A DNA stretch of 64,000 bases from an uncultured Flavobacteriales bacterium (lineage in GTDB: Bacteria > Bacteroidota > Bacteroidia > Flavobacteriales_D > Parvicellaceae), in the NCBI GenBank assembly GCA_943788755.1, contig CALSRM010000003.1, positions 496,001-560,000 on the forward strand. The letters run 5' to 3'. The translations under genes were made by a program, and so were the position numbers. Below, one piece after another: positions 40,376 through 63,585 of the stretch. The notes beneath the pieces are model-generated. The model saw nothing but the letters and a program-made list of their open reading frames with translations. It had not been told where the DNA came from and did no database searches. Position 1 is the first letter of the stretch. Every line of letters begins with the position of its first letter.

Positions 40376-41720
40376 TCAAATTACTACAGAGGATAATAAA
40401 GCGGCAATAGCTGAATACAAAACCAAAGCTGCAGCCAAAACAGAAAGAGATAGGCAAGCAAACGTAAAAGACATAACAGGTCAGTTTACTGGAGCGTATG
40501 CTTTGCATCCTTTTACGGGAGAAAAAGTGCAAATTTGGATTGGAGAGTATGTATTGGCCTCTTATGGAACAGGAGCGGTTATGGCCGTGCCTGCAGGAGA
40601 TCAACGCGATTACGATTTTGCAAAGCACTTTGGAATAGACATACCAAATATATTTGAAGGGAAAGATATTTCGGAAGAAGCTTATACCGATAAAGACGCT
40701 GTACTAGCAAACTCTGACTTTTTAAACAACTTACCCGTCAAACAAAGTATTGTAAAAGCTATTGAGGCTATCGAATCAAAAGGCTTTGGAAAAGGCAAAA
40801 CGCTTTATAGATTGAGAGACGCTATTTTCTCTCGTCAACGTTATTGGGGAGAGCCATTTCCGGTTTATTACAAAGGAGATACGCCGTACCTTATTGAAGA
40901 CGAAAAACTACCCGTTACCTTGCCAGAAGTAGATAAATATTTACCTACGGAAGAAGGTGAGCCACCATTGGCTAGAGCAGAAAAAGTCGCTTGGGATGTT
41001 TTTGAAGGAGACAGAATGGAGTACAATACCATGCCAGGGTGGGCGGGTTCTTCATGGTACTTTTTGCGCTACATGGATCCGAACAATTTAGAGGAGTTTG
41101 TAAGCAAAGAAAAAGCGGAATACTGGAATCAAGTTGATTTATATATAGGCGGAGCGGAACATGCAACCGGACACCTATTGTATTCTCGTTTTTGGACAAA
41201 GTTTTTATGCGACATGGGGTATATTTCTTTTGACGAACCTTTCAAAAAGTTGATTAATCAAGGAATGATTTTGGGTAGGTCAAGTTTTGTATATAAAGTG
41301 AAAGATGAAAATAAATTTGTTTCCTTTGGTTTAAGGAAAGAATATAAAACCCAACGACTACATGCAGACATTTCAAATGTGGTAAATGATGAATTAAATG
41401 TTGAGGGGTTTAAAAAAGGGCGCTCTGAATTTGCTGATGCGGAATTTATATTAGAAGGCGGAAAGTACATTTGTGGATCGGAAATAGAAAAAATGTCCAA
41501 GTCTAAATACAATGTGCAAACCCCAGATGAATTGGTTGAAAAATATGGAGCAGACACGCTTCGCTGTTATGAAATGTTTTTAGGCCCTCTGGAGCAGGCA
41601 AAACCATGGGATGTACAAGGAATTAGCGGAGTAAACAACTTTCTAAAAAAACTATGGCGCCTTTTCCATCAAGGAGAGAGCTTTTCTATTTCGGAGCAGA
41701 GCCAACAAAAGAGAACTTAA
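40344..41720 (+). CDS. leuS: Leucyl-tRNA synthetase, middle part (editing and catalytic domains)
   Basis: This frame continues leuS after the +1 shift at 40331. It has the editing domain ([42 protein letters not shown], with the conserved Asp that excludes leucine). The second half of the catalytic domain follows ([30 protein letters not shown]) with the KMSKS loop ([11 protein letters not shown]). The frame is lost again at about 41695, where one base seems missing in the Asp/Glu codon before GCA GAG CCA. The Met used here is internal and is not a real start. Confidence 0.92.
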
Positions 41721-42168
41721 AATCATTACATCAAGCAATCAAAAAAGTTACCGAAGACATAACGCGTTATTCTTTTAATACGGTGGTCAGCACCCTGATG
41801 ATTGCGGTTAACGAATTGGGTTCTCAAAAATGCAACAACAAAGCAATTCTTTCAGACTTGGTAGTGTTGGTTTCGCCATTTGCACCGCACATTGCAGAAG
41901 AGTTATGGGGTTTATTAGGAAACACCTCTAGCGTAACCGTTGCGTCTTGGCCAAAATTTGAAGCAGTTCACTTAGTAGAAAGCGATTTCGAATACCCCGT
42001 TTCTTTTAACGGTAAAATGCGTTTCAAAATATCATTACCCGTAACAATGGGAAATAGAAGAGTTGAAAAAGCATGTTTGAACATGAAAAAACAGCACATT
42101 ATTTAGATGGTAAAGACCCTAAAAAAGTGATAGTAGTTCCGAAGCGGATTATTAATGTGGTGGTTTAA
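41654..42168 (+). CDS. leuS: Leucyl-tRNA synthetase, C-terminal part
   Basis: This is the anticodon-binding helical domain and C-terminal domain of LeuS. The true sequence begins at about 41696 ([21 protein letters not shown]) and includes FNTVVSTLMIAVNEL and LVSPFAPHIAEELW. The frame stops early at 42106 because one base appears missing near 42073. In the corrected frame the end reads EHEKTAHYLDGKD, then KKVIVVPKRIINVVV with TAA at 42166-42168, the canonical LeuS terminus. Three indels in one essential housekeeping gene point to sequence error rather than inactivation. Confidence 0.9.
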
Positions 42169-46700: not shown

Positions 46701-47992
46701 GCATGGCACCTCCGGGCTATGTTCTGGATAACACTGATTGTAACGAAAACAACCCTGATGTTTATCCAGGAGCACCAGAGCTTTGCGACAATATTGACAA
46801 TGATTGTGATGGCCTTATTGATAATAACGTAGTATTTACCGACTATTATTTGGACAACGATAATGATGGTTTCGGAGAAATTGGTGGGACAATTGTATCA
46901 ACCTGTAATGGAGTACCTACAGGATATAGTTTAGATAACACCGACTGTAACGATAACCTTGCTTCAGTTTACCCAGGAGCTCCTGAAATTATGTGTAATG
47001 GGATTGACGAGAACTGTAATGGACCGGCAGATGATATAGATACTATGCCACCAACGTTAATTGCCCCAAGTAATGTATCTGCCACGGTCAACGGTGTAAG
47101 TTGTTCAGCAAGTGGAGTGAGTTTGGGAACAGAAACAGCACTTGACAACTGCGGAATACCCTCTGTATCCAATGATGCTCCTGTCATTTTTCCATTTGGT
47201 GAAACAACGGTAACATGGACAGCAACTGATGGAGAAGGCAATTTCACAACGGCAACACAATTGGTAACCGTAACTACTACATTAAACATTCAAGTCGATA
47301 GCGTGCGTCATGAATCGTGCCCAGGATTTGAAGATGGTAAGATCTTTATAAAAGTTACAGGGGGTATTGCTGAATATTCGTTTGATTGGGATTACGACGG
47401 GGTTGGTGATAATGATGACATGGAAGATTTAGCAGGAGTTGGAGCTGCGGAACATGCTTTAATTGTGGAAGATTTTTATGGTTGTACGCTAATTGACACC
47501 ATTGTTGTATCCGCTCCACCAGGTATCATTCTTTCTGCATTAGTAACCGATGAGATGCAAGGTGGTGATGGAACTATAAACCTTTCTGCTACAGGAGGGA
47601 CCCCGCCATTAGAGTTTTTATGGGATAATAATGAAACAACAGAAGATGTGTTAGGATTATATGCCGGAAGTTATGAAGTGATAATAACCGATGATATCGG
47701 ATGTTCCGACTCACTAACTGCTATAGTCGAATCTCAAGTGTCGCTTATTGAAGCCGAGATGTTCTCGATGCAGGTTTATCCCAATCCAACAAGTGGCGTA
47801 ATTTATATAGAATTCTCACAAACAATCGAAGGGAGCATTACAGTTTTGGATGCTGTCGGTAGAGTTTTGAATTCAGAAAAAATCACTAATAAAAAACAAC
47901 CCATTACTCTCGCAAAAAACGAAAAAGGAATTTACTTGTTGCATGTTTCCCACGGAGAGTCTATTACAATTGTTAAAGTTGTTTTACAATAA
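43703..47992 (+). CDS. MopE-like T9SS-secreted protein with 14 putative metal-binding repeats
   Basis: The 1429-residue protein has a signal peptide (about 1-22) and two Ig-like domains (about 25-215). Then 14 repeats of the putative metal-binding motif C-D-G-x-D-N-D-C-N/D-G-x-x-D-D/E-G follow (about 215-1110), alternating with YYPDxDGDGYGD-type acidic, calcium-binding-like loops and NNxDCDD loops. A HYR-like domain (about 1115-1195) has [14 protein letters not shown] and [15 protein letters not shown]. Two SprB-type modules (about 1200-1345) and a T9SS sorting domain ([27 protein letters not shown]) complete it. It may bind calcium or copper at the surface, as MopE does in methanotrophs (analogy only). 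One repeat has VNDCNG with an altered spacing (SIVDEG). Confidence 0.85.
44440..47030 (+). repeat. Fourteen imperfect CDGxDNDCNG repeats
   Basis: Units of about 45-70 residues share the Cys-rich acidic core. Several are close copies at DNA level (for example ATATGTGATGG-ATAGA-AATGATTGTAATGG-type cores near 44870, 45170 and 45375), but spacing is irregular. Confidence 0.8.
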
Positions 47993-48222: not shown

Positions 48223-49920
48223 ATGAAATTTTTTTCAACATTCTTTTTCTTTCTAGTTGTTTTAAATTCGATGCTTTCGCAAACGAAGGATACAGTTGGT
48301 GTATTGGATAAAGCTAAAGAACATGTTAAAATTTCTGGAGGCATTGGGGCATTAGGGACTTTCTATCAATCTACTACTATGGATTCGACAAGAAATCCTA
48401 TTTTCTATCAGCTAAATGCTAATCTAAATATTAAAGTTGGAAGTGTTTCAATTCCTTTTTCTGCTGTTCTAAACCAACAAGAGAGCAAGGTTTCACAACC
48501 ATTTAATCAATATGGCCTAAGCCCAAGGTATAAGGGGATTACCGCTCACTTAGGATATCGGACACTTAAATTTTCCGATTATTCCCTAAGTGGCAACCAA
48601 TTTCTTGGAGTAGGAGCTGATATTAACCCTAAAAACAGTATGGTTAGGGGTAAAGCTTTGTATGGAAGGTTTGCTAAAGAAATTGTACCAACGATTAACC
48701 CAATGGGAGATATTATTGGGGTCCCTAATTTGTCTAGGTTTGGTTATGGAGCAATGATAGAAGTTGGTAAGAGAAGTAATGCAATTGGCGTTCTAGTTTT
48801 TAAGGCTAGAGACAATCTTTCTTCAGACAGCCTGCTGAACCAAGATGCAACTTTAAAGCCAGGTGAAAACTTGATATTTGGTGTGACCACAAAACAAAAA
48901 ATTTCAAAAAAATTATCTTTGAAAGGTGAAATAGACTGGAGTGCATATACAAAGGACTTGAGAAATGAAGAAACTGTTATGGAGGGCTTTTCTTATTTAA
49001 ATAATATCTCGCCGTTATTTCATGCTAACTCCTCGAGTACTCTCACTAAAGCAATAAAAGCTGATTTAGATTACAGCTTAAGAAAGGTAAAATTAGGATT
49101 AGCTTATCGTAGAATTGACCCTGGTTATAGAACAATGGGCTCTGTCTATTTAAATAATGACTTTGAAGATATACAGGCCAAATCGACTTTTCGATTGTTC
49201 AAGAATAAATTAACATTAGGGGGAAGTTTTGGGATTCAACGAAATAACTTAGACGATTCAAAGTACACTGAAATGTTAAGGGTAATCTCCTCCCTTAACG
49301 CAAACTATACGATTAATGAACACTGGGTTGTCAACGGGATGTATTCAAACTTTAATTCATCAAGTCATAGTGTTTTAACCAAAGACATTGATACTGATTC
49401 TTTGCGATATATTCAAGTTACTAGGAATTCGGCATTACAGATAATGTATGCTAAAGCAAATAAGGTTCGAAGAATTGCTGTTTCTTTAAGAGGAAATTAC
49501 CAGGCAGCACAAACAGAAAACATTGACGCAACTTCAATAAATTATGTATACAATTCCGCTTTAGGTGTCCAATACGGGTTTATCAAAACGGGGCTAAATA
49601 TTAACCTAAGTTTAAATGGCGCAAAAAACATCAATGCTACTAGTGAAATTACAACAATAGGCCCTTCCCTTGCACTTTCAAAGAGGTTTTTGTCTGGAAA
49701 ACTAAACACTTCTCTGGGGTTCTCTGTTCTTAAGACAATTTATGATATGTCAAGCGGTGCTATCATAAGCACTAAGATATTAGGAACGTACAAAGTAAAT
49801 CGACATCATAACTTTAATTTAAGTTTGTCTGACTTAGACAAGACCACAATCATTTCTACAACTGATAAAACACATGCAAATGAACTCGTTATCTCGCTCG
49901 GTTATAACTATTCTTTTTAG
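48223..49920 (+). CDS. Predicted outer-membrane beta-barrel protein, first gene of the giant operon
   Basis: The 565-residue protein has a signal peptide (about 1-19, ending SMLSQ). The remainder is made of alternating amphipathic strands with aromatic residues at ends (FYQLNANLNIKVGSVSIPFSAVL, LGLAYRRIDPGY, LNTSLGFSVL, HNFNLSLSDL). The C-terminus ELVISLGYNYSF ends in Phe, as in outer-membrane barrels. No TonB box or plug domain is evident. It begins a series of same-strand genes separated by 4-13 bp; a role as the membrane anchor or exporter of the giant protein is inferred from position. Confidence 0.75.
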   Translation: MKFFSTFFFFLVVLNSMLSQTKDTVGVLDKAKEHVKISGGIGALGTFYQSTTMDSTRNPIFYQLNANLNIKVGSVSIPFSAVLNQQESKVSQPFNQYGLSPRYKGITAHLGYRTLKFSDYSLSGNQFLGVGADINPKNSMVRGKALYGRFAKEIVPTINPMGDIIGVPNLSRFGYGAMIEVGKRSNAIGVLVFKARDNLSSDSLLNQDATLKPGENLIFGVTTKQKISKKLSLKGEIDWSAYTKDLRNEETVMEGFSYLNNISPLFHANSSSTLTKAIKADLDYSLRKVKLGLAYRRIDPGYRTMGSVYLNNDFEDIQAKSTFRLFKNKLTLGGSFGIQRNNLDDSKYTEMLRVISSLNANYTINEHWVVNGMYSNFNSSSHSVLTKDIDTDSLRYIQVTRNSALQIMYAKANKVRRIAVSLRGNYQAAQTENIDATSINYVYNSALGVQYGFIKTGLNINLSLNGAKNINATSEITTIGPSLALSKRFLSGKLNTSLGFSVLKTIYDMSSGAIISTKILGTYKVNRHHNFNLSLSDLDKTTIISTTDKTHANELVISLGYNYSF

Positions 49921-49929
49921 TCACAATAC

Positions 49930-52900
49930 ATGAAAAGCTTTTTAAAAATATTCACTTTTATATTACTTTTACCCACTGCTGGTTTGGGGCAAATGCCAAC
50001 AAGTGTAATTGTTAATTTAAATCCCCCTTCCCCATTATATATTGGTGAATATTACTCTTTTGGCTCTCAAGCTTTAACGGCTCAATTAACATTAAATGAC
50101 CTTCAACAAGACTCTTGGGATGTACGTTTAAAAGTTACGATTGAAGGAGAAGGAATAAAGATTTCTACCAAACAAAACTTTAGGCCCCTTAATAGAATAA
50201 CACTATTTAAAGGGTTAACTCAAATTATAGAAGGTGATGGGTTTGCAGAATACCTAAATGTAAATAATGTTGACCTGGAAGGAATTACTGCTGCTTCATT
50301 AAATCAAAGCGGAAAACTGCCAGAAGGTCATTACGTTTTTTCAGTAGAAATACTGGATTATAATACAGGTATTCCGTTGTCTTTTCCTGATTTTAAGAGT
50401 GCTTTTATTTTTTTCGAGCCTCCTCCAGTTACACTTCAGCCCGCTTGCGAGTCAGTTATCACACCTACCGACCCTGTTAATCTTTATTTTACATGGCAAA
50501 TTGCTGGAGGGTCTGATCCTTCCATTGCTATGTCAAGTAAATATCAATTGTCTCTTTATGAAATTACAGAAGATAGTCAAGACCCTTACTTTGCAGTTGA
50601 AAATAATCATGCTTTGTTAATTTATCAATCTGACTTTATTAATCAAACCTCATTGTCAATTGATCAAACTTCAATGGCTGTTAGCCTCGGAACTAGCTCA
50701 ATCACCTCTTTTACCCCAGGAAAAAAATACATTTATCGAGTTCAAGCAAAGGATGAAGATGAAGGAGGAATTTATCGAAATGAAGGGTTTAGCGAATGGT
50801 GTTGGTTTTTCTATGGTTACCCACATGATGGAAATCTCGCAATAACAACCCCAGCTGATGAATATATTTTTGGAAAATATGATAATAAAGTATTTGGGTG
50901 GGAAGCTAGTGACCTAGGAACTCCGGGACAAGAATATGATTATACGGTAGTAGTTAAGGTTTTAAACGAAGGACAGGAAAAAGAACGTGCAATGGATGAA
51001 AACCCAGATTGGTATGTTAAAAATATCCCTACTACATCTTCTTTAAATGGGTATGGTTTTACACTTGACCAAGATACTGAACCAGGCACAACTTATATAT
51101 GGCAGGTTATTGCACATACGGGGGTCCAGGAAGTGGCAAAAAGTGAAATTTACACATTTTATTCTGCTCCTTTAGTGGATGAATTTTATGTAGGAGGAAA
51201 TTTAGTAAAAGTGGTTTCACTCACTAATACTGATCTTTCCAATCTTTCAGGAGTTGGAAGAATTCAAATTTCCAATGACGAAACAGATGTGTTTCAGTTC
51301 GATTTTAAAGACTTAACGATTGAAGAAGTAGGGGTTAAAATGGTGCTTACGGCAGGTGAAGAAATTTTTGAAATTCCTGATAGAGAACCAATGGTTTTGG
51401 AACCCTCAGATATTCAGAATGAAAATGCAAACTTTAACATAACCCAAGGAAAAATAACTACAGAAGGAATTCAATTGATGGGATATTTAAGCACTGTTTT
51501 TCCATTAGCTACTAGTAATGGAGAGTTATCTTATATAAAATCTGAACAAAAGTGGTTTCGATTAAATCCAACCTATCAAATGCTAGGTGAAGCGACACTG
51601 AGCGAAACGGTGGAATATGAGTTATTGGAGCCGTATGAATTTATCGTATCCCTAAGTAATAAAACAAAGTTTGTCATAGACAACGAAAAATACTCTTTGT
51701 ACTATTCAGGTAGTATAGGGTGTAACAACCTAACAACAACAAACGATGGCTTGCCATACACTATACCTTTTAACAATCAAGCTTCTATATATTATTTAGA
51801 AGCTAGCGGCTTGTCAATAAGTGTGGCTAATTATATTACTCCTCTTTCTGCTATGAACATTGCTTTTGTTCCGAAAAGTGTAATTGTTGATTTGTCAGAG
51901 AACCAGTCACCTGATAAACTTTCGGGTCAACCACAATGGAAAGGCTTTTATTTTCCGGAGTATTCAGCAAGGTTTTATTCCAATAATATTGATGCGTCAA
52001 ATCAGCTCGCACTTCCTTCGAATTTAGACAAAAATGAAACACTTGACAATACAGATTTCTGGATAAGCACAGCAGGACTTCATTTAGACTATCCTTTCAC
52101 ACTTGAATCAGAAGGAACTACCTTTAACCAGTTTGCAACAATTGTTTCAGGAAACTTAACGATTGAAGACAATCAGGTAACCAATAGTAAGTTAGAGGGA
52201 GAAATTAAGATTCCAGTTATTGACAAAATAGATGGGTTTGAATTTGAAATACCAATTACTAATGATGGATTAGCACAAGGGTATTTAAGGGAAGACTTAA
52301 CCCAACGAGAGATGGTGTTTAACCCATATGGAGGTGAAAACAAAGTTGATATTTCTATTAATAGAGCTGTTTTTGCTGACAATGAAAGAATTGATTTAGA
52401 GATTGATGCAGAGTTAGTGGGGATTAGTGCTTTAGCAACAGGAATTTCTGATTTTAGAATTTATGGAGACAACTCTATTGGTTTTGGAAGGAAAGGGGGT
52501 TCTAAAGCATTAGACACACAAGTAGAGGGGGAATACAAAGGTTTCGCCGCTTATGTTCAAGAAGTAGGAGCTGCTTTATACAATGGAAACTATGCGTTTT
52601 CTTATGTTGCAGCTATGGATATGGGAGACGATGTAGTGGGAGAAGGTGGCCCTCCATTACTTCCTATTACTAGCATAGAACCTGTTGGAGATGATGTTGT
52701 TGTTCCTACTTATGGGCCAAGCACACCTCAACCAGAACCTTCCATTGCTGTTCCCGCAGACATTGATCCAAGCTCTTCTACTTTAACGAGTAACGAAATG
52801 TATGTTGGAATTGACAACGCTTTGGTTAATTTGGAAGGGTACCTAAAACTAACAAACAACGACCCTAACTGGGGCACTTCTTTTCGAGGAGGGATCACCG

Positions 52901-55900
52901 GGAGTATTAAGATTCCAACCACTATCGAGGTAGGGGCCAATATGATATTTGGAAACAGAGAAGGTCTTAAGTTTTGGTATTTTGACGCATACTTCAATGA
53001 CCGTGAAGGATTAGGAATTCCTGTTGCTCCATTTTTTAATATTGTGGCTATGGAAGGAAAAGTGTTCCATCATATGTCTAAATCAGAAGGGGAGTACATA
53101 GTAGATCCAGAATTAGCATTTGGAGCTGGCCTTTATATGCAAATTATTGATAATCCTACAAGCGGTGCATTATTTGCCATCGATGCAGGAATGGAAATTA
53201 AAATACAAGAGTCTGGCGACTTTACCTTTTCAATGAATGGAGATGGTTCTTTCTTGAATACGAATAGACGATCTGCTGCCTCAGGAGGAGTAGCATCTGC
53301 AGTTGGAGATGCTGTTATTGAAGAAGCCCTTGAAGCGATTGGTCCTATTAGTCTTTCTTTTGATGTTGCCGGCGGTGAGCTTTCTGTAACTGCAGAAGGC
53401 ACAACCAAAGGAAGGTTGGACTATATAAAAGGAGACCTTGAACTTGGCTTTGGTGCGGATTTAGGCGCTATTCCTGGAGTTGATTTTAACTTTAAGAAAG
53501 GAGGAGGAAACATTGACTTTAATGCTAATGCAAGTGGAGAATTCGGAATTGGATTAGGTTTGGATGGGAACCTATTGAGTTTAGGAATTGAAGGTTCTAA
53601 TTCAGCATATCTAGATTTTGCATATGATAATGTTTCTTTTTCAACAGATGTTAACAGAGCAAATAAGACAGGATCTCTTGCTTTTTCTTATGACGACTTA
53701 TCCATTGATTTTGGAAAGGAAACAGATGGAGGGTATTTGAATTTTGCTTTGTCTGATGACTTGAAATTTAATACTGGATTCAATACAGCGGGTTCGGCTT
53801 ACCTTGGATTAACTGCAGGTATTAATGTATTTAATATTGCAGGAGACAAAGCAGCAGGAACTGGAATGTTTAGTCTTGATATCGATGGGTTAGAGATGAG
53901 TACCTCTGTGAACACACAAGAGAAAAGCGCATCTTTCGGATTGAATACCTCTGGCGTAGTATTAAATGTTGATGGAGCTTATGGAAAAGGAGGGTCTTTC
54001 TTATTGGATGCTGGTGGAGCAAAGTTTGATATCGGAGCGAATTTAGAGAACAAAACTGGTCACATTGACTTTACTTTAGATGATAATAGATTATTTGCTG
54101 AATTAACGGAAGATAATCAAGGATCGTTATTATTTAAAACTGGGCCTACGGAGTTTGGTATTTCAGGTAATACGGCTGGTACTGCAGGAAAAGTTTTTTA
54201 TAAAGATAATTCAGCATCATTTAGTATTGCTGCGGATAGAGACAATAAAACGGGTGGTGTAGACTTAACTTATGGTAGCAATACCTTATCATCTGGATTA
54301 TCTCCTGACTCCTCTTACATAAATCTTGGATTTTCAGGAATGGCTTTAAACCTTTTTTCGGACAATAAAAATGCTGGCATGATCGAATTGATTAATGGTT
54401 CTGATCAAATTAAAGTAGAGGCAGATTTAGAGGCAAAGTCAGGATCTATCTTATTAACTGATGGATCGAACAGCATATTTGCAAAGGGTGCTGCAAATGC
54501 TACTGGAGAGATTAAATTAAATTTAGATAATAACAAGATAGAAGCTGTAAAAGGACTATCAGAGTCTTCATTGTTTGTTGGTTCTGGACAATATGAGTTT
54601 AGTCTTGAAGGTGCTAATGATGGAAGCAGCGGATTAATAGGAATGAAAGTCGGTAGTCTTGAAACAAGGCTAGGAATTGACATTGCGCAGTCTGCTGGAG
54701 AAATCTTTGTTGGGGATGGGGCTGACTTTATTCTTTTAAAAGGAAATAAAACAGAAAATACTGGAATGATTGATCTTAAAAAATCGATTGTAGAGTTTAC
54801 CGCTATTTACGATGATTCTTTGCATATGTATTCAGGTCCTTTGTCTTTAACAAAATTCTCGAATGGAACTGGGAATATGAAATATTTCAAAGATGGTAAT
54901 GAGATAGCATTGTATAAGAAATCGGATGAATTAGGTATTGGAATGAGTTACTCAGGTAATGACTTATACTTAGCTCATGGAACAACAAAAGATTTGGACT
55001 CTGTTTATTATCGCGGAAATGGGCAAACTGTTACAGCAAGTTTGGTTGGTAATACAGGAAGAGTAGGTGTACTTAATTCCTTAGGTTATTTTGGTTTGGT
55101 TGCAAGTAATGATGGTACAGGAGCGTTAAGCTTTAATAGAGGAGATTGGGGAGCAGTAATTTCAGCTAACGTGAACGACAATACAGGTCATTTGGAATTA
55201 ACGAAAGGTGATATGATGTTAGATGGTAATGCTAATATCAGTACTAAAGCATATGATGTTGGATTTGAAAAAGGAAGTATTCTTACAAGGTTGTATTATG
55301 AGCCTGGTAAAAAGACAATCAATTTTGGTGTATTAAACAACTTTGATATCACGGCAATTAAAGAAGGTGAAAATTACACAACTGAGTTTGTTAAAGGAGA
55401 ACATCATTTAAAAGGAAAAGTAGAAGGTACTTTAAAAGAGATTGAATACAATGGAATGGGGGCTAAGGTAATACTTGGTAATCAAAAAGAGTATGTTAGT
55501 TATGGCGGCCACAGTGTATTGATAGAAAATGAAAAAGTATTTGTAGATGAAGAAGAAGTATACGACTACTCTAGCGTTTCTATGACAGATGTGTTGGACC
55601 TTAGAAAAGTTAACTGGAAAGAGGTTAACCTTAAAGGAATGGATTTTAGCGGTATTGATCTTAAAGGAATGGATCTGTCAGGTATCGATTTTTCAAAACT
55701 TGATTTACCAAATGTAAACTTGAAAGACATCAATTTTACAGGTATTGATTTTATGGATGTGGATTTATCTGCATTAGACTTTACAGGTATAGACCTTTCT
55801 GGTTTAGACCTTTCGGGATTGAACTTTACCGGGTTTGATTTGTCAATGTTGGATGTTTCAATGATTGATTTTACAGGAATAGACCTATCTGGATTTACAT

Positions 55901-58900
55901 TACCAAACATTGATCTTTCTAGACTGAATCTCTCTGGAATAGATTTTTCTGGATTTAGTTTTGAAGGAATCGATATTTCAATGATCGATTTATCTGGTGT
56001 TGATTTTGGAAGTTTAGATTTATCGGGAATTGACCTTTCATCTCTTGGCGATTTTGACATGATAGATTTACCTACCTTGGATTTATCAGGAATCGACTTT
56101 ACAGGATTGGATTTATCTAGTTTAGACTTATCTATGATCGATTTTACTGGAATTGATCTAACGGGTATTAGTTTGCCAAATATTGATTGGCCAAGCATTA
56201 ATTTATCAGGAATCGACTTTAGTGGATTTGGTTTTCCAGATATTAATTTAGCCTTTATTGATTTTTCTGGAATTGACTTTTCTGGGATTAGTTTAGCTGG
56301 TTTAAACTTTACTGGATTTGATTTTGGCAACATCAATCTGTCGTTTATGGATTTTAGCGGATTTGGTTTTCCTGGTCTAGATCTTTCTTTCATTGACTTT
56401 AGTGGATTAGATTGGCCAAACATTGATTTATCAATGATTGATTTTAGTGGATTTGATTTTCCAAATATTGATTTATCTATGTTCGATTTTTCAGGAATCA
56501 ATTTTCCATCAATGCCTGATTTAAACTGGACAATGCCAGCTTTGTCTTTCGATGATGTTGAGATAATTCCATACTTGAACGGAAAAAACAGTGCAATAAC
56601 CTTTATTAAAGGTGCCGATTCTGTTCATGTAAGATCTGTTGAATTGAAAGACGGAGCAATCACGGCTTATATTTCAGGAAAGAATATTGAAGTAAAGAAA
56701 GAAGGAGCAGAGTATGCTTTAAGATATGAGGATTATACAGCTGAATTAAAAGGCAAAGACTTAGTTGTTAAACAAGGCGAGACGAACCAATTACACATTA
56801 CTCCAGAAGCAGGTTCTTTGGTTTACGATAATTACGAAGTATCGTTATCAAAAGAAGATGGCTTTAGCTACTCTGATGGTTATAATAAAGCAACAGTAAC
56901 AAATGAAGGAATAGCTGCCTCTTCTGGTGAGAAGGAGTTGAGTTTTAATAAGCAAAAACAATTATTTATTCAATATGAGCAGGGGAAAAACTTTAAAATA
57001 GATCCAGCAGTTGGATTAGAAGTAAACTACGATGGAAGTGCCTTAACAGTAACAGAAGAGCTATTATCTTATTCAGATTCTGATAGAGAGTACAAGGTTT
57101 CTCCGGAAGAACTTTCTATCACAGAGGGAGACAAGAAGTTAATCGTAAATGAAAATAGAGGTTATCTAGAATATGATTCTAAGAACTCTTTGGAATTAAC
57201 TGGAGGGGTTTTAACTGCTATACATGATGATAAGACATTTACTATATCGGATCAAAAAGAAATTACCTATAACGATCCTAACAGGGAATTAGCAATATCT
57301 CCTGATGCTATGTATTTGGAGCAAGATGGCAAATCAGTTAGTCTTTCGGCAGAGGAAATGCAAATAATTTTGGCAGAAGATCAAAAGCTTAAGTTAACAG
57401 AGAGCTTACTTGATTTAAAATACAATGAAAATGAATTGAAGTTAGGTTCTTCTGCATTATACTTTACGGATGGTAGCCAAACATTTGATTTATCGAAAGA
57501 TGAACTTGCCATAAGTAAAAATGATAATAGTATTTTTCTAAGTAAAACAGGTTTTGGATTGAATTACGGTTCAAACCACATTAATATTGATAAGCAAGAT
57601 CAAAAAGTTGACTTTAAATATGGAAATGTTGAAGCAGCATTTAGTAATGGTGAGTCATTGAGCTTTACAGATGGAACAAGATCGTTTGAATTGGCATCCA
57701 CAGGCCTGTCAATGCAAGATGGTGATAATACACTTGCAGTTGTTGATGATAATGGAAAACAAGCATTGGAATTAACAAGTGGCGACGATCGATTCTTTGT
57801 AAATAATTCAGGGTTTGCGATTGACTACTCGGGTAAACATTTTGCAATCAATGATGAGGAGTATTTACACGTAGATATCGATGCTAACCGTTATATTGAA
57901 GTAATGAATAATGGTGCAAAATATAGTGACAACGGAACGGAGTTAATTATTGGAGGAGATGAAAACTTTTTGGAAGTAAAAGATGGCACGAAAAGTATTG
58001 CCCTTACTCAGGATGAAAAATTAACCTTGAAGGATGGCAAATATTCGGCATGGTTAAGCAAAGACCTTGAAATTGAAATGACTGACGGAATAAGAACTAT
58101 TGGATTATTTTCAGAGTCACACTATGTTACTTACCAACAAGGAGAATATGAATTTGGAATTAGAGGAGGAAGTGGAGGCAATAAGCCAGGTCTTGATGTA
58201 ACAGCATATGGAAACACAATTATAGTTGAGGGAGAGAGAAATAAAGATGTAACTGTCGGTGTTTCATCTCCTGATTATGGGGAAGTGTCCTTTACTATTA
58301 ATTCTGAAAAAGATATAGAAGCAAGGTTCGTAAATGGAAGCTCTGTTTATGGGTTTATAAAAGACGAAGCTGGCATCACTCCAATCACGGGGTCGGAGCC
58401 TGCTCCACCAGAACCAGAGAACCTAGAGGGATCAGGAAGTGTTGTAGCCATGGATGGGCCATCTCACTTGACGAACAGCATTGCTGATGAAGGAGGAGGA
58501 AGTATAAGAGGAACAGCAGAACTTTCTTTTGATAGTAGAACCAGTCATTTTGTGGCTAATGCTGCTGTTGCTGGTAACGCACCTATTTGTATTGAAGGCG
58601 CGATGGCTTTGGAAGTTTCACCAGAAAAGTTTAAATTGAACATTGGTACTGAGGCTCAAAAAATTGAGGTATATCCTACATGTTCTGGCTTTGGAGGTGG
58701 AGGTTGGTTAGGCATCGAGTCTACTTCAGCCACAACATCAATCGATTTAGGTGTATTTGTGGGTTGGAAAGCGGGTGCTTCCGTTGAAATAGGGAGTGAT
58801 GCCATAGGAGCTGGTTTATCTGTAGAAGCGGCTGCGGAACTTGGAGTTAAAGCAAAAGCTGAGCTATTACCAGACTTTAAATTATTAGAAGCAGGTATAT

Positions 58901-59109
58901 GGTTGGACCTATATGTTGCTATAAAAGCAAAATATTGGGCACTTGGAGTAAGTGGTTCTTGCACGCTTGCAGAAGCTGGGCTTCATGGAGAACTATTGGC
59001 AAAATTCCTTGAGACTGAAACTCAAGTGTCCGGAAAATTGAGTGGATATATTACTGTATTGGATATAATAAGCGCAAGTTTTGATATGTCGTTTAATACT
59101 AGTTTTTAG
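49930..59109 (+). CDS. Giant (3059-aa) secreted beta-repeat protein with pentapeptide-type array
   Basis: It has a signal peptide (about 1-21). The N-terminal part (about 22-185) resembles the TANFOR-type start of large Bacteroidota surface proteins (NLNPPSPLYIGEY, GKLPEGHYVFSVEILDYNTG). Two Fn3-like modules follow (about 170-430). Long beta-rich regions continue to about 1160, then an array of short amphipathic strands (about 1165-1885: FSYDDLSIDFGKE, TAGSAYLGLTAG, NKTGHIDFTLDDN). A pentapeptide-type array spans about 1891-2197 (IDFSG, IDLSG, LNFTG units). A second strand-repeat array covers about 2200-2810 (SYSDSDREYKVSPEELSI-like, about 20-residue period). The C-terminal beta domain (about 2830-3059) ends in Phe. 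No T9SS sorting domain was found. It is 9 bp after the barrel gene and 4 bp before the Fn3 gene. It probably forms a long surface fibre; the function is unknown. Confidence 0.8.
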   Translation: MKSFLKIFTFILLLPTAGLGQMPTSVIVNLNPPSPLYIGEYYSFGSQALTAQLTLNDLQQDSWDVRLKVTIEGEGIKISTKQNFRPLNRITLFKGLTQIIEGDGFAEYLNVNNVDLEGITAASLNQSGKLPEGHYVFSVEILDYNTGIPLSFPDFKSAFIFFEPPPVTLQPACESVITPTDPVNLYFTWQIAGGSDPSIAMSSKYQLSLYEITEDSQDPYFAVENNHALLIYQSDFINQTSLSIDQTSMAVSLGTSSITSFTPGKKYIYRVQAKDEDEGGIYRNEGFSEWCWFFYGYPHDGNLAITTPADEYIFGKYDNKVFGWEASDLGTPGQEYDYTVVVKVLNEGQEKERAMDENPDWYVKNIPTTSSLNGYGFTLDQDTEPGTTYIWQVIAHTGVQEVAKSEIYTFYSAPLVDEFYVGGNLVKVVSLTNTDLSNLSGVGRIQISNDETDVFQFDFKDLTIEEVGVKMVLTAGEEIFEIPDREPMVLEPSDIQNENANFNITQGKITTEGIQLMGYLSTVFPLATSNGELSYIKSEQKWFRLNPTYQMLGEATLSETVEYELLEPYEFIVSLSNKTKFVIDNEKYSLYYSGSIGCNNLTTTNDGLPYTIPFNNQASIYYLEASGLSISVANYITPLSAMNIAFVPKSVIVDLSENQSPDKLSGQPQWKGFYFPEYSARFYSNNIDASNQLALPSNLDKNETLDNTDFWISTAGLHLDYPFTLESEGTTFNQFATIVSGNLTIEDNQVTNSKLEGEIKIPVIDKIDGFEFEIPITNDGLAQGYLREDLTQREMVFNPYGGENKVDISINRAVFADNERIDLEIDAELVGISALATGISDFRIYGDNSIGFGRKGGSKALDTQVEGEYKGFAAYVQEVGAALYNGNYAFSYVAAMDMGDDVVGEGGPPLLPITSIEPVGDDVVVPTYGPSTPQPEPSIAVPADIDPSSSTLTSNEMYVGIDNALVNLEGYLKLTNNDPNWGTSFRGGITGSIKIPTTIEVGANMIFGNREGLKFWYFDAYFNDREGLGIPVAPFFNIVAMEGKVFHHMSKSEGEYIVDPELAFGAGLYMQIIDNPTSGALFAIDAGMEIKIQESGDFTFSMNGDGSFLNTNRRSAASGGVASAVGDAVIEEALEAIGPISLSFDVAGGELSVTAEGTTKGRLDYIKGDLELGFGADLGAIPGVDFNFKKGGGNIDFNANASGEFGIGLGLDGNLLSLGIEGSNSAYLDFAYDNVSFSTDVNRANKTGSLAFSYDDLSIDFGKETDGGYLNFALSDDLKFNTGFNTAGSAYLGLTAGINVFNIAGDKAAGTGMFSLDIDGLEMSTSVNTQEKSASFGLNTSGVVLNVDGAYGKGGSFLLDAGGAKFDIGANLENKTGHIDFTLDDNRLFAELTEDNQGSLLFKTGPTEFGISGNTAGTAGKVFYKDNSASFSIAADRDNKTGGVDLTYGSNTLSSGLSPDSSYINLGFSGMALNLFSDNKNAGMIELINGSDQIKVEADLEAKSGSILLTDGSNSIFAKGAANATGEIKLNLDNNKIEAVKGLSESSLFVGSGQYEFSLEGANDGSSGLIGMKVGSLETRLGIDIAQSAGEIFVGDGADFILLKGNKTENTGMIDLKKSIVEFTAIYDDSLHMYSGPLSLTKFSNGTGNMKYFKDGNEIALYKKSDELGIGMSYSGNDLYLAHGTTKDLDSVYYRGNGQTVTASLVGNTGRVGVLNSLGYFGLVASNDGTGALSFNRGDWGAVISANVNDNTGHLELTKGDMMLDGNANISTKAYDVGFEKGSILTRLYYEPGKKTINFGVLNNFDITAIKEGENYTTEFVKGEHHLKGKVEGTLKEIEYNGMGAKVILGNQKEYVSYGGHSVLIENEKVFVDEEEVYDYSSVSMTDVLDLRKVNWKEVNLKGMDFSGIDLKGMDLSGIDFSKLDLPNVNLKDINFTGIDFMDVDLSALDFTGIDLSGLDLSGLNFTGFDLSMLDVSMIDFTGIDLSGFTLPNIDLSRLNLSGIDFSGFSFEGIDISMIDLSGVDFGSLDLSGIDLSSLGDFDMIDLPTLDLSGIDFTGLDLSSLDLSMIDFTGIDLTGISLPNIDWPSINLSGIDFSGFGFPDINLAFIDFSGIDFSGISLAGLNFTGFDFGNINLSFMDFSGFGFPGLDLSFIDFSGLDWPNIDLSMIDFSGFDFPNIDLSMFDFSGINFPSMPDLNWTMPALSFDDVEIIPYLNGKNSAITFIKGADSVHVRSVELKDGAITAYISGKNIEVKKEGAEYALRYEDYTAELKGKDLVVKQGETNQLHITPEAGSLVYDNYEVSLSKEDGFSYSDGYNKATVTNEGIAASSGEKELSFNKQKQLFIQYEQGKNFKIDPAVGLEVNYDGSALTVTEELLSYSDSDREYKVSPEELSITEGDKKLIVNENRGYLEYDSKNSLELTGGVLTAIHDDKTFTISDQKEITYNDPNRELAISPDAMYLEQDGKSVSLSAEEMQIILAEDQKLKLTESLLDLKYNENELKLGSSALYFTDGSQTFDLSKDELAISKNDNSIFLSKTGFGLNYGSNHINIDKQDQKVDFKYGNVEAAFSNGESLSFTDGTRSFELASTGLSMQDGDNTLAVVDDNGKQALELTSGDDRFFVNNSGFAIDYSGKHFAINDEEYLHVDIDANRYIEVMNNGAKYSDNGTELIIGGDENFLEVKDGTKSIALTQDEKLTLKDGKYSAWLSKDLEIEMTDGIRTIGLFSESHYVTYQQGEYEFGIRGGSGGNKPGLDVTAYGNTIIVEGERNKDVTVGVSSPDYGEVSFTINSEKDIEARFVNGSSVYGFIKDEAGITPITGSEPAPPEPENLEGSGSVVAMDGPSHLTNSIADEGGGSIRGTAELSFDSRTSHFVANAAVAGNAPICIEGAMALEVSPEKFKLNIGTEAQKIEVYPTCSGFGGGGWLGIESTSATTSIDLGVFVGWKAGASVEIGSDAIGAGLSVEAAAELGVKAKAELLPDFKLLEAGIWLDLYVAIKAKYWALGVSGSCTLAEAGLHGELLAKFLETETQVSGKLSGYITVLDIISASFDMSFNTSF
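55600..56520 (+). repeat. Pentapeptide-type coding array (about 61 units of 15 bp)
   Basis: A strict five-residue period of the form [I/L/F][D/N][F/L][S/T][G/x] runs through residues about 1891-2197 of the giant protein. It is interrupted by a few irregular units (for example around LGDFDM and by units with LPN or WPN). Confidence 0.88.
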
Positions 59110-59113
59110 ATAA

Positions 59114-61099
59114 ATGAAAAAGATACTATATATACTTTTACTAATAAGTCAACTATGCAGTGCTCAGGGTGAAGCTGAGCTTTTTGTGAGTAATGACTAT
59201 GAAAGTGGACAAGGGGTTCGATTAAAATGGGTTTTTGAATACCTCTATCACCCAGAGGGGTTCAATATTCACAGAAGCTCTGATGGGTCTAATTGGGATA
59301 AGATGAACCAAAAGCCAATACAATTGGCAAAGAACCTTCCAGAAGGACATTCACTTGCTAAAGAAGAACATGACCTGTATAAAGCTGTGGTTGCTACCCC
59401 GTACCCGGATATGAGGAAAAACATAATACGTGCGTTTGTATTAATAAAATCTATTTACGATAATAATTTGGCCGAATATGTTGGGATAGCACATCATGAT
59501 AAAACAGCTTTACAAGGCACTAAGTATACTTATAAGTTGTCCCTTGTTACTCAGGAGGGGGACATTGAGTTAACAAAGTCCAAAGAGATTTTATGCAGCA
59601 CTTTCAGTAAACCTCTTCCCCCAGAAGATATTCAACTGAATAGAAAAAAGAAATTTATTACTTTTAATTGGAAACCAGATCTATACAGATACTATGGAGT
59701 TGATATTTATAAAAAAGCAATGGGTGAAGCAGAATTTGAAAAAATTACTACCACTGGTCCGAGGGCGATACAGCCAAAAAGTGCAAAAAATTATTCTGAA
59801 GCTTCTATCTTTTTTGTGGATACGAATATCGTATATGAAACGGGATATTTATACAAATTTGTTGCAGTGGATTACTTTAATCAAAGGTCAGAAATGTCTA
59901 AGGAAATAGCTGCGCCAATAAAAGACTTTATACCCCCGCAAATGCCGCATAGCTTAAAATTAAGACCTAGTGCTTTAACCAGTAAAGTGTCTGTTGAATG
60001 GAATGCTATTGATGAAGCTGATCTAGCTGGGTATTATATTTACAGAGGCTACCATCCCGATAGCTCATTTGTGCGTATTACTGAAGAGATCCTTCCAAAA
60101 ACGATAAAAAATTACACGGATGAAAATGTAACTGTTGGAGGTTATTATTACTCCGTTTCTTCGGCAGATTTGGCAGGAAATGAAACCTCTTCGGGGTTGA
60201 TGTTTTGTGAAATGCGTGATGTTGAGCCACCTGCAGCTCCTCAAAACATGGTAGCAAAATCTGAATCAGGAAAAATAACATTATCATGGTCTGCGAATAC
60301 TGAAAGTGATTTGAAAGGTTACTTCGTCCAAAAATCGTTGAATGATAAAGACAATAGTGATAACCACTACATTAATGTCAATCACACGCCTTTGATTGAA
60401 ACAGAATATGTGGAAAAGTTGGCTATCAACATTAAAAATAAGTTTGTCTATCGGGTAGTTGCAGTTGACACTAATTTTAATCGAAGTAAACCATCTGTCA
60501 ATTCATTAGCTCAAATGCCAGATGTTGTTGCGCCAAAGGCGCCTGTTATTAAAAATGTAGCGCTAGAAAGTGCTAATGCTAGGGTGGAGTGGTTAAAAAA
60601 TGTAGATACAGATTTAGGTGGTTATAATCTGTTTCGCTCCTTAGTTAAGGATAGTTTATTTTACGAATTAGTAAATGTATCGCCTATCAAGCCGGAGTCG
60701 GAATCCTATTTGGACAGAAGAACAGAAAAAGGAAATTCCTATGTATATGTGCTTGAAGCTTTTGATCAAACAGGAAATAAATCAAAATATTCAAACAGTT
60801 TTAAAATTAAGGTACCCAAAGACAAGTTAAAGGACTCTATTGTCATCACAAAGTCGGTTTACAACAGTAAAAAGAAACAAGTTGTTATTCAATGGAACAG
60901 TCCAAAATACATTAAAATGAAGGGTTATGTTGTCTATGGTAATGATAGTGGTACTTTAAAACCATTAACAGGACTTTCAGAATACACGGAAATGAAACTC
61001 AAAAAAGAATTAACCCTACCTTTAGAAATTGAAATTAGAGGATATACAGAAACAGGCGATATCATTAAGTCAGAAACAATTTTAATAAATAACGAATAA
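59114..61099 (+). CDS. Multi-Fn3 secreted protein of the giant operon
   Basis: The 661-residue protein has a signal peptide (about 1-18, ending CSAQ). It is composed almost wholly of fibronectin type III modules, at least five, with recurring WxxxxExDLxGYYIYR, SYLDRRTEKGNSYVYVLEAFDQTGNKS and YRVVAVDTNFNRS motifs. The modules are separated by PPxxP(Q)-type linkers (VEPPAAPQNMVAKSES, VVAPKAPVIKN). There is no catalytic domain, sorting domain or membrane segment after the signal. Spacing of 4 bp from the giant gene and 7 bp to the next suggests cotranslation and a structural role, such as a sheath or linker (inference). Confidence 0.82.
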   Translation: MKKILYILLLISQLCSAQGEAELFVSNDYESGQGVRLKWVFEYLYHPEGFNIHRSSDGSNWDKMNQKPIQLAKNLPEGHSLAKEEHDLYKAVVATPYPDMRKNIIRAFVLIKSIYDNNLAEYVGIAHHDKTALQGTKYTYKLSLVTQEGDIELTKSKEILCSTFSKPLPPEDIQLNRKKKFITFNWKPDLYRYYGVDIYKKAMGEAEFEKITTTGPRAIQPKSAKNYSEASIFFVDTNIVYETGYLYKFVAVDYFNQRSEMSKEIAAPIKDFIPPQMPHSLKLRPSALTSKVSVEWNAIDEADLAGYYIYRGYHPDSSFVRITEEILPKTIKNYTDENVTVGGYYYSVSSADLAGNETSSGLMFCEMRDVEPPAAPQNMVAKSESGKITLSWSANTESDLKGYFVQKSLNDKDNSDNHYINVNHTPLIETEYVEKLAINIKNKFVYRVVAVDTNFNRSKPSVNSLAQMPDVVAPKAPVIKNVALESANARVEWLKNVDTDLGGYNLFRSLVKDSLFYELVNVSPIKPESESYLDRRTEKGNSYVYVLEAFDQTGNKSKYSNSFKIKVPKDKLKDSIVITKSVYNSKKKQVVIQWNSPKYIKMKGYVVYGNDSGTLKPLTGLSEYTEMKLKKELTLPLEIEIRGYTETGDIIKSETILINNE

Positions 61100-61106
61100 G
61101 TTAATT

Positions 61107-62297
61107 ATGGTCTATATAAGAAATATTTTAATCATCTTTATCATGTTCTTTGTTGGAGTATATCATTCCATTGGACAGGTCCGAATTGGGGATAGTACCA
61201 ATCCGAATACAGAAGCAATTTTGGATTTAACAAATAGTGAAAACTTGGGATTAGCACTTCATATACAACAAAGTGATCCGATAAATAACCCTAAGCCAAT
61301 AGGAATGTTGTACTATTACAATGACTACCTGTACATTTCTCAAGATAGCGTTGTAGCATCTTGGAATGTTTTATCACCTTGGGTTTACAAAGGAAAACAG
61401 CATCTAAACAAAGGAGTTTCATATCCATATACACCGGGCCTAGCAATAGGTGTAGAGTTCGGTTTATCTCAAAATAATTCGTTGCACATTGCAAATCGTC
61501 CAATTTCTCGAAATTCTATTAGTAAAACATCCTCATTATTAATAGGGGATGCTAAAGACTCAACTACTAATCTTAATTATCATTATTTAATGATGGATAG
61601 TGATGATATCCTTGTTCGAAAAAACTCCGGTGAAGCGGGAATATTAAAACTACAAGAAATGGTAAATTCAAATGTTCAGGTTGGTTCTCCTATCGATTCA
61701 TCAGGTAATGTCAATGTTTTTGGGAAAGTACAAGAAAACGGTGGTGATATTATGCCTGCTGGTACAGTCATCATGTACTACGATAACCTAGCTTCTTTTA
61801 CAAATGGTTTAGGAACAGGAGAAATGACAGGTTGGGGGCTTTGTGATGGGAGCTCTTATACTTTTAATGGCACCACAATAACATCTCCCGATCTTCGGGG
61901 TCGATTTATTGTTGGAGCAGGTACACCCATTGCAGGGAATACCACATATTATAAAGATAGCATAGGAGGATATGATCAGGTAATACAGCGAAAAGAAGAA
62001 GTTTTTGCTCACAACCATGCTCCAGGTATGACACTTATAACAAATACTAAAGGAGAACATTACCACAAGCATCCCTATACTAATGACACAGGTGCAAACG
62101 TTGGAGATATAGGTTCAGTTGGTTGTTGTGGTTGTGAAGGGATTGGCCCCGAAGGAAGTTTTAATAGAACATCTACAAATGATGGTGAACATGGCCATAG
62201 TGTTTATGGTAGTACATCAAACGTCAATTCTGGATCACAAACGGCTATGGACAAAATTCCTCCATATTTCGTAGTGTATTATTTAGTAAAATTATAA
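61107..62297 (+). CDS. Phage tail-collar/tip-like secreted protein, copy 1
   Basis: The 396-residue protein has a signal peptide (about 1-24). A conserved N-terminal segment (about 25-95) has VRIGDSTNP, AILDLTNSENLGLAL, PIGMLYYYNDYLYISQDS and SWNVLSPW; it resembles the tail-fibre-like heads of many Bacteroidota secreted proteins. The C-terminal collar-like domain (about 210-396) starts GGDIMPAGTVIMYYDN, has GWGLCDGSSY and SPDLRGRFIVGAG, and ends PPYFVVYYLVKL. HxH motifs are at 302/304, 318/320 and 362/364, like the iron-binding HxH sites of phage T4 fibre tip gp37 (analogy). It is 7 bp after the Fn3 gene. Confidence 0.82.
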   Translation: MVYIRNILIIFIMFFVGVYHSIGQVRIGDSTNPNTEAILDLTNSENLGLALHIQQSDPINNPKPIGMLYYYNDYLYISQDSVVASWNVLSPWVYKGKQHLNKGVSYPYTPGLAIGVEFGLSQNNSLHIANRPISRNSISKTSSLLIGDAKDSTTNLNYHYLMMDSDDILVRKNSGEAGILKLQEMVNSNVQVGSPIDSSGNVNVFGKVQENGGDIMPAGTVIMYYDNLASFTNGLGTGEMTGWGLCDGSSYTFNGTTITSPDLRGRFIVGAGTPIAGNTTYYKDSIGGYDQVIQRKEEVFAHNHAPGMTLITNTKGEHYHKHPYTNDTGANVGDIGSVGCCGCEGIGPEGSFNRTSTNDGEHGHSVYGSTSNVNSGSQTAMDKIPPYFVVYYLVKL

Positions 62298-62310: not shown

Positions 62311-63585
62311 ATGCAATTGAAGATAATCAAAATCATAGCAATCGTTTTCTTGATAATCATTGGACCCTCCGTTGTTTCTCAAGTTAAAATTGGTGATCCG
62401 AATAGTCCAGATGCAAATTCTATATTGGACCTTACCAATAGCAGTAATCTGGGGTTATTATTAAATAACAGGCTCACTTCAGTGGACACCAGTGATATTC
62501 AACCTGTGGGAACGCTACAGTTTTATGATGGAGAACTGTATCTTTCTCAAAGCAGTAGTATTGCAAAGTGGAACGTACTTTCTCCATGGCGTTTTAATGG
62601 TAGCTATGATTATGGAGTTTGTATTCCTTCTCTTGGAACTTATGGAGTAGGAATTGGAGTCAACACACATGCTGCTAGCTATCAAGACTCTACTTATTTG
62701 CATTTGGCACAACCAAATACAAGCAAAAACATTATTGATGCACCTCTATTAATTGGACCTGAAATTGGAACACAAACACCACCACCAACCGATAAATATA
62801 TGCTAGTCAATAACAAAGGAATTTTATGTTATGACACTGACATTAGTAATGTTGATACATTGTTTCTGCAACAAATTGAATATGGAAAAGTACAAGTAGG
62901 AGAATCATCCTCAAATAATACGGATTTAAATGTATACGGGAAAGTTACTGAAGGAGGAGGAAATATACAACCTAAAAACGCTATTATAATGTGGAATGGA
63001 AACATCACGGGTTCCAATTTTAATAGCGGACTTGGAATAAATGAAATGACAGGTTGGGCTATATGTGATGGTAATAATGGTACACCGGATTTAACGGGTA
63101 GATTTATTGTAGGTTCAGGAGAACGGAATAAATACATTAGAACAGCTTCAGGCTCAATAGATTCATTAAGCGCTAATGAGACTTTTCCGGTACCCGCTCA
63201 AACCAGCATTGGAGGGCAAGATGATTTTTTACAAACGGCATCACAAGTTGGGATTCATTTACATACAAAAGGAACCTTATCAGCTATCAGTCGTGGTGCA
63301 CATGAACATGGAAGCAAAGCATCTAGTGTTTATGGAGGCGGCAGTATTGGAGCCTGTTGGCCAGAGGATGATGGTGTAAACCTCGGACCTCGAGATGTGA
63401 CCACATCAACGCCATACCTTCAAAATGTAGTGGCAAACCTTCTTGATGACACCAACACACCTAATCATTCTCATGATATTACAGGAACCACACTAGCCAA
63501 TGCATCGAGCACTCCAACTGCTCCTCAAGAGGTCATTGTGAATCATCCTTATTATTACGTAGTCATTTATTTAATGAAACTTTGA
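62311..63585 (+). CDS. Phage tail-collar/tip-like secreted protein, copy 2
   Basis: This 424-residue paralogue of the preceding protein has a signal peptide (about 1-24) and the same N-terminal segment (VKIGDPNSPDANSILDLTN, LYLSQSSSIAKWNVLSPW). The C-terminal collar domain has NIQPKNAIIMWNG, GWAICDGNNGTPDLTGRFIVGSG, and the end YYYVVIYLMKL. HxH motifs are His316/318, 331/333 and 386/388. The central region differs from copy 1, as expected for diversified receptor-binding tips. It starts 13 bp after copy 1. Confidence 0.82.
   Translation: MQLKIIKIIAIVFLIIIGPSVVSQVKIGDPNSPDANSILDLTNSSNLGLLLNNRLTSVDTSDIQPVGTLQFYDGELYLSQSSSIAKWNVLSPWRFNGSYDYGVCIPSLGTYGVGIGVNTHAASYQDSTYLHLAQPNTSKNIIDAPLLIGPEIGTQTPPPTDKYMLVNNKGILCYDTDISNVDTLFLQQIEYGKVQVGESSSNNTDLNVYGKVTEGGGNIQPKNAIIMWNGNITGSNFNSGLGINEMTGWAICDGNNGTPDLTGRFIVGSGERNKYIRTASGSIDSLSANETFPVPAQTSIGGQDDFLQTASQVGIHLHTKGTLSAISRGAHEHGSKASSVYGGGSIGACWPEDDGVNLGPRDVTTSTPYLQNVVANLLDDTNTPNHSHDITGTTLANASSTPTAPQEVIVNHPYYYVVIYLMKL

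Follow-up and report, generated by a model that had tools for sequence, protein, structure and literature searches.

The window analyzed here is a 64,000-nucleotide stretch of contig CALSRM010000003.1 from an uncultured Flavobacteriales bacterium, and its plus strand encodes a giant envelope protein of 3059 amino acids (open reading frame [ORF] 49930 to 59109). We describe an array of tandem five-residue units within this protein (55609 to 56511, residues 1894 to 2194) in which like residues recur every three units, and we weigh what this period suggests about the coil into which the array may fold.

The array consists of 59 five-residue units and one six-residue unit. Block a (55609 to 56043, residues 1894 to 2038) holds 29 five-residue units and block b (56062 to 56511, residues 2045 to 2194) holds 30, and the six-residue unit LGDFDM lies between them (56044 to 56061, residues 2039 to 2044); in two relatives, L027 and L028 (the G038 record), the latter unit reads LGSFEM and LGNFNM, respectively. 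The lead-in unit LDLRK (55594 to 55608, residues 1889 to 1893) immediately precedes the array, and counting it as an imperfect 61st unit reproduces the figure of about 61 given in an earlier note on this DNA. The exit segment MPDLNW (56512 to 56529) marks the point at which relatives lacking the array resume (PDVNW). Over 305 residues the array region carries a net charge of −44 and contains no Cys. A frame of 311 amino acids is open antisense to the array (55566 to 56501, minus strand) and is most likely a by-product of the regular array codons.

Both flanks of the array are long, beta-rich, and self-similar, and neither matches a Pfam family above the cut-off. The upstream flank (53830 to 55584, residues ~1301 to 1885) is built, by eye and by autocorrelation, from repeats of ~20 to 22 residues, the top combined autocorrelation lags being 22 and 20. 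The downstream flank (56545 to 58149, residues ~2206 to 2740) contains self-similar segments with no single clear period (top lags, 16 and 9). The N-terminus of the protein looks by eye like a signal peptide and, together with the neighboring genes, suggests a surface location; neither Pfam nor NCBIfam finds a type IX secretion system (T9SS) sorting domain.

Family membership and comparison with control arrays

The earlier note proposed a comparison with the hidden Markov models of the Pfam pentapeptide families, and two of these recognize the array: PF00805 at an E value of 1.9e-22 (78.9 bits against a gathering threshold of 20.2) and Pentapeptide_4 at 1.3e-18, above its gathering score. These E values put the regularity of the array far beyond chance. 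Block b alone passes with PF00805 (50.8 bits) and falls just under the cut-off of Pentapeptide_4, and the top sequence matches of the array in the PDB are solved pentapeptide proteins. The PF00805 superfamily is defined by at least eight contiguous pentapeptides, which the array has, and by a small residue at position i−2, as in A(D/N)LXX, which it lacks. By sequence, the array is a pentapeptide array, belonging to a known family and having an unusual i−2.

For comparison, we examined 39 loci, 9 of which held no array that passed our filter, leaving 30 control arrays with 998 units. Control runs were allowed to hold single nonfitting units; the controls include nine records fetched from phage or plasmid matches, and 18 of the 30 arrays come from one bacterial family (f27), so that they are not independent of one another. 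Of the control units, 70% have Ala at i−2, 8% have Val, and 6% have Ile, Leu, Phe, or Met. The 60 parsed units of the window array have Ile in 30, Leu in 13, Phe in 8, Val in 5, Met in 3, and Gly in 1, the Gly being within the six-residue unit. Ile, Leu, Phe, Met, or Val thus occupies i−2 in 59 of the 60 units, which upholds the claim that this residue is nearly always large. That it is noncanonical is borne out by the complete absence of Ala, and has to be qualified for Leu and Ile, both of which already appear at i−2 in the revised consensus for pentapeptide repeat proteins derived from solved structures (PMC7337050). This amended consensus covers the Ile, Leu, and Val units, 48 of the 60; Phe and Met, which it does not list, account for 11.

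In other respects the array resembles PF00805 proteins, with tandem five-residue units, Asp or Asn at i−1 (Asp 43, Asn 11, Ser 3, Gly 2, Thr 1), Leu or Phe at i (Leu 29, Phe 26, Trp 3, Val 1, Ile 1), Ser or Thr at i+1 (Ser 31, Pro 10, Thr 8, and others), and Gly at i+2 (Gly 31, Met 7, Asn 6, and others). It differs from them in having Ile, Leu, Phe, or Met at i−2 in 54 of 60 units, against 6% in the controls, and a period of three units instead of four. The further claim of unusual length does not survive the comparison: the array is ordinary in this respect, since control runs reach 57, 58, 58, 60, 62, and 66 units. Another long run, L230 (genome G668), has 59 units, mostly A-N-L-E-G with a few variants, and shows both lag-3 and lag-4 signals; it is an extreme canonical array.

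A three-unit period in the array

One coil of the canonical helix comprises four units (PMC8145042), and like residues are consequently expected to recur every four units. We scored Phe/Trp against Leu at position i by unit number modulo k, using 20,000 shuffles (floor P = 5e-5). Modulo 3, the window array reaches this floor (P = 5e-5); modulo 4, it gives P = 0.98. Leu occupies 17 of the 20 units in phase 0, Phe or Trp occupies 18 of the 20 in phase 2, and phase 1 is mixed. The phase is continuous across blocks a and b, block b having the clearest 15-residue period of the window, and the best lags among the 44 tried were 3, 18, 9, 6, 27, 15, and 24 units. The period extends to i+1 over the whole array (modulo 3, P = 0.001; modulo 4, P = 0.85), where Pro and Thr are concentrated in the Phe/Trp phase. 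Within block b, both i+1 (P = 0.004) and i+2 (P = 0.034) have significant modulo-3 signals.

Eight of nine related array segments from four genomes behave in the same way: modulo 3 gives P < 0.02 in these eight, modulo 4 gives P < 0.05 in none of the nine, and over ten arrays and segments the modulo-4 P values at i range from 0.30 to 0.97. The period-3 segments include both blocks of G038, both blocks of L027 (P = 0.012 for its block a), and two of the three blocks of G029. The third G029 block has the clearest period, following with hardly a deviation the order Leu-Phe-Phe at i and S, T/S, and G at i+1. The best four lags of L027 are 6, 33, 3, and 9, followed by 44. Each G038 block is in phase and the pattern is blurred over the whole G038 array, indicating phase shifts between its blocks.

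Thirteen control arrays, each of 25 units or more and with Phe/Trp/Tyr fractions of 0.08 to 0.92, were testable in this way. At P < 0.05, 5 of these 13 have a modulo-4 signal and none has a modulo-3 signal; modulo 2 is significant in two, modulo 6 in two, and modulo 8 in one. For identity at i, the z scores of all 30 controls sum to +8.5 at lag 4 and to +2.3 at lag 3; the sums of +6.1 at lag 1 and +7.2 at lag 2 show that neighboring units are also alike. A wider scan of 96 distinct arrays yielded 73 with bulky i−2 residues in <30% of units and defined scores, and in these the mean z rises from 0.38 at lag 3 to 1.28 at lag 4.

Recent DNA duplication was considered as the cause of the period and is rejected for the window array and L027 on the evidence of codons and four-fold sites. 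Residue identity in the window array is 0.467 at lag 3 against 0.33 to 0.37 at lags not divisible by 3, and codon identity given the same residue is 0.496 at lag 3 against 0.41 to 0.58; the corresponding codon values for L027 are 0.450 and 0.45 to 0.54. When the window array is aligned without gaps to L027, identity at four-fold sites (n = 45) is 0.27, the chance level, and residue identity at i is 0.78. Because the silent sites have been randomized and the i residues kept, the period must have been maintained by selection on the protein. Together with the modulo-3 signal at i, this selection suggests that the coil repeat is probably 15 residues or 30, not 20.

Relatives with and without the array

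The host genome comprises 3.17 Mb in five contigs, and the named relatives that we found are uncultured Flavobacteriales. A family search of 39 genomes gave 15 with matches to the array and its flanks at E ≤ 0.001, several of which match just through flank repeats or distant arrays. The array itself is present in the window, in L027 (the place of the G289 match), in G038, and in G029. It is missing from the same gene in G001 and G003, both of which belong to the genus of the window; G002, the third genome of that genus, has no match to the array or the flanks. The DNA of L027 and G003 is 93% identical over 1970 nucleotides (nt) before the array and 90% identical over 598 nt after it, and a stretch of 941 nt in L027 has just 5 nt, in frame, as its counterpart in both G001 and G003. 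So clean an absence from the same gene makes the array an optional module. The two flanks nearly abut in G026 (residues 1317 and 1323), and no run of at least six units occurs in the loci of G001, G003, G020, G021, or G026.

The G029 array has mostly Val, Ile, or Ala at i−2, with Ser/Asn-rich linkers between its blocks. In composition it is intermediate between canonical arrays and the window array, and the 15-residue period is already present in two of its three blocks.

Two irregularities in this set should be recorded. The giant gene of G003 (L018) reads as two ORFs, of 1429 and 1354 amino acids, that overlap, which may reflect a frame change in the assembly or a real break. G289 is placed in a family other than that of the window, and the upstream DNA of L027 (3507 bases) is ~93% identical to that of G001 and G003; gene transfer or a wrongly binned contig may explain this similarity.

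A proposed coil and its alternatives

From these sequence data we estimate a probability of roughly one in two that the array is a parallel beta-solenoid, derived from pentapeptide repeats, with a repeat of three pentapeptides (15 residues) instead of four, acting as an optional rigid acidic spacer. Somewhat more tentatively, we suggest that this Flavobacteriales lineage turned the pentapeptide solenoid from a four-unit to a three-unit repeat and that the enlarged i−2 residue fills the changed core. A three-unit repeat may be built as a single coil of 15 residues, as a coil of 30 residues with two equal halves, or as a pair of chains wound around each other. In such a solenoid, each face would carry a short I-D-[LF] strand whose i−2 and i side chains point inward, S-G, S-M, or P-N would form the corners, like residues would stack on successive layers, and Asp or Asn at i−1 would face out as acidic ladders. 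The coil would close every 15 residues (three sided) or every 30 (six units in two equal halves), and the bulky core would fit the second closure better than the first.

A crude volume estimate bears on this choice. It combines the opposite-face distance of type II pentapeptide proteins, 15.1 Å (PMC7337050, Table 5), with five-residue sides and general values for residue volumes and the rise (4.8 Å). On this estimate, the inward side chains occupy 225 Å^3 per unit in the array against 150 Å^3 in the controls, and they would fill 0.82 of a four-sided prism (canonical arrays, 0.55), 0.60 of a five-sided prism, and 0.48 of a six-sided prism. To this approximation, the side chains would be too crowded in a plain triangle and tightly packed in a square, and a flattened coil of six units would accommodate them comfortably.

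Within the giant protein, the array lies between the two beta-rich repeat regions. A stiff acidic spacer is its most likely role, given its position and the fact that it is cleanly present or absent. Such a spacer would be ~9.6 nm long if a coil comprises 15 residues and ~4.8 nm long if it comprises 30, assuming the same rise.

A number of results weigh against the three-unit solenoid. The three-sided prism would be overfilled, at 1.43 of its volume on the same crude estimate, and there is no 30-residue signal beyond the 15-residue one (z, −1.4 to +1.6), which leaves the six-sided form without direct support. In block a of the window array, neither i+1 (P = 0.08) nor i+2 (P = 0.89) is significant; one related segment (G029b) lacks the period (P = 0.39), block a of L027 is weak in the lag test, and the nine segments, being related, are not independent tests. 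Four-unit signals turn up sporadically at other positions, in L027 block a at i+1 (P = 0.034) and in G038 block a at i−1 (P = 0.023), roughly the number to be expected from this many tests. Lag 4 exceeds lag 3 in just 40 of the 73 arrays of the wider scan, so the lag ruler is weak for any single array. Finally, AlphaFold2 yielded no solenoid, either for residues 1761 to 2337 as a single sequence (predicted local distance difference test [pLDDT] score, 33.9) or for block b with five aligned array segments (six rows; pLDDT, 34.8). These low scores say little, as no canonical array was folded alongside for comparison. The suspicion of an unusual coil in the earlier note stands in part: the three-unit period at i and i+1, with no four-unit period there, supports it, and the array may be either a wider solenoid or a different fold. 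We therefore regard the array as an anomaly with good support and not as a new fold that has been proven.

The alternative that fares best is an ordinary right-handed quadrilateral helix, with 20 residues per coil and a tolerance for bulky i−2 residues, in which the three-unit pattern rotates Phe between faces and so avoids Phe-on-Phe contacts. The strong matches to PF00805 (1.9e-22) and Pentapeptide_4 (1.3e-18) count in its favor and against a three-unit coil, as does the fact that solved quadrilateral proteins are the best sequence matches among structures. Leu and Ile do occur at i−2 in the consensus of PMC7337050, the core would just fit into a four-sided prism, filling 0.82 of it, and the G029 array forms a bridge to canonical arrays. 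We nevertheless consider this helix less likely than the three-unit coil, because the whole array has no four-unit signal at i (P = 0.98), a signal that 5 of the 13 testable canonical arrays do show, and because avoiding Phe-on-Phe requires just a low match at lag 4, not an exact period of 3 across 60 units that i+1 likewise follows.

A second alternative holds that the 15-residue period merely records the ancient duplication of a 15-residue (45-nt) unit and so is uninformative about the coil. In its favor, some DNA self-matches are spaced by 45 nt or a multiple: in their main repeat family, 4 of 12 spacings are 45 nt and one is 90 nt. The G038 array may also bear a trace of duplication, a possibility that tells against the three-unit coil: its codon identities at lags 3 and 6 (0.52 and 0.50) exceed those at all but one of the six lags that are not multiples of 3 (0.38 to 0.43; the exception, lag 1, has 0.54). 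Same-residue codons in the window array and L027, however, are no more alike at lag 3 than at other lags, and the saturated four-fold sites (0.27) beside i residues that are 0.78 identical point to a pattern that was selected. Even an old duplication preserved by selection would need a structural reason for that selection, and we regard a bare footprint as improbable. The proposal that the segment is an unfolded or phase-separating low-complexity sequence, to which the low pLDDT of both predictions and the strong acidity of the array lend some color, is very improbable given the strict five-residue register across 59 units, the hydrophobic i−2 and i residues nearly throughout, the occurrence of a six-residue unit at the corresponding point of two relatives, and the periodic core in relatives.

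Relation to known solenoids

Triangular coils of 15 residues exist in nature among left-handed beta-helices, the spruce budworm antifreeze protein having 15 residues per turn. The coil interior of such helices, which include the hexapeptide transferases, is small, whereas two bulky residues of every five would point inward in the array. The left-handed hexapeptide beta-helix is moreover made of six-residue units, and the register of the array is five throughout except for one unit.

A three-sided helix is what Bateman et al. predicted in 1998 for pentapeptide repeats, and that prediction proved wrong for the solved proteins, as recounted in PMC8145042. The period of our array may fit the triangular model, but a plain triangle seems too narrow for so bulky a core. 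Among three-sided folds, the Knotted Solenoid of Brevundimonas and others is described as nearest to pentapeptide repeat proteins (PMC13123833). Its coils are made of three parallel beta-sheets, an arrangement with which the 15-residue period of the array is compatible, and its Phe residues point inward. According to the same source, Knotted Solenoids typically span 100 to 160 residues, contain a knot of the skip-and-backtrack type, and have, at the start of coils, a conserved Phe with a Cys at the third residue after it; the array differs from this description in having no Cys, hence no Phe/Cys pair, and no long inserts.

Our searches of the open-license literature found no published pentapeptide array with a 15-residue period, nor, as far as they go, any report of PF00805 members that differ in how many units make up a coil. 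The pentapeptide helix is the classic example of a repeat that dictates a single coil geometry. If an enlarged i−2 does let the five-residue unit close at another number per coil, the relationship between repeat sequence and coil number would be testable by simple substitutions, and protein designers would gain a wider or narrower rod from the same unit. The lag test, by which like residues are sought once per coil, is a cheap ruler applicable to all pentapeptide arrays.

Searches for further arrays of this kind

Across the order (399 genomes, E ≤ 1e-10), 12 genomes match, and bulky i−2 residues occur in the window, G289, G038, and G029. The class search (395 genomes, E ≤ 1e-14) and the phylum search (395 genomes, E ≤ 1e-10) each found two other matching genomes, with canonical runs from their loci in both cases. 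A protein-based scan of viral contigs found no array, and DNA patterns picked out 69 and 73 stretches; among those with at least seven units, L104, L108, and L117, all on small contigs, have runs of seven, and L169 and L219 are canonical. L104 and L117 (viral, ~4 to 5 kb) carry four I-D-F-S-G units and one I-D-W-S-S unit after Y-N-F-A-N-G-G-L-P-N, runs too short to compare with the array. Phage records gave 130 matches and plasmids gave 60, all at <60% identity; nine of these records were parsed as controls.

Neighboring genes and other features of the window

Four plus-strand genes surround that of the giant protein. Upstream, a 565-amino-acid protein (48223 to 49920) matches no family above the cut-off and has, by eye, the look of an outer-membrane beta-barrel. 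Downstream follow a 661-amino-acid protein with a fibronectin type III domain (59114 to 61099), a 396-amino-acid protein with a weak tail-collar match (61107 to 62297; E = 0.023, below the Pfam cut-off), and a 424-amino-acid protein with no Pfam match (62311 to 63585) that matches the same genes in relatives as the 396-amino-acid protein. We fetched ten loci for a comparison of this neighborhood, two of them without the giant gene and some cut by contig ends. Homologues of the 565-amino-acid protein lie directly upstream of the giant gene in relatives (five loci), homologues of the fibronectin type III protein lie directly downstream (seven loci), and genes for collar-like proteins come next after the latter.

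Farther upstream, the sole strong match in the genome to leucyl-tRNA synthetase (39368 to 42130) is broken up by stops and frame changes over three overlapping ORFs, and no sequence anywhere in the genome reaches the cut-off of that family. The breakage of so essential a gene suggests sequencing or assembly errors in the genome. Between this gene and the giant protein lies a 1429-amino-acid T9SS-type protein (43703 to 47992) with Ig_7, SprB, and HYR domains and 14 stretches that match the MopE putative metal-binding motif.

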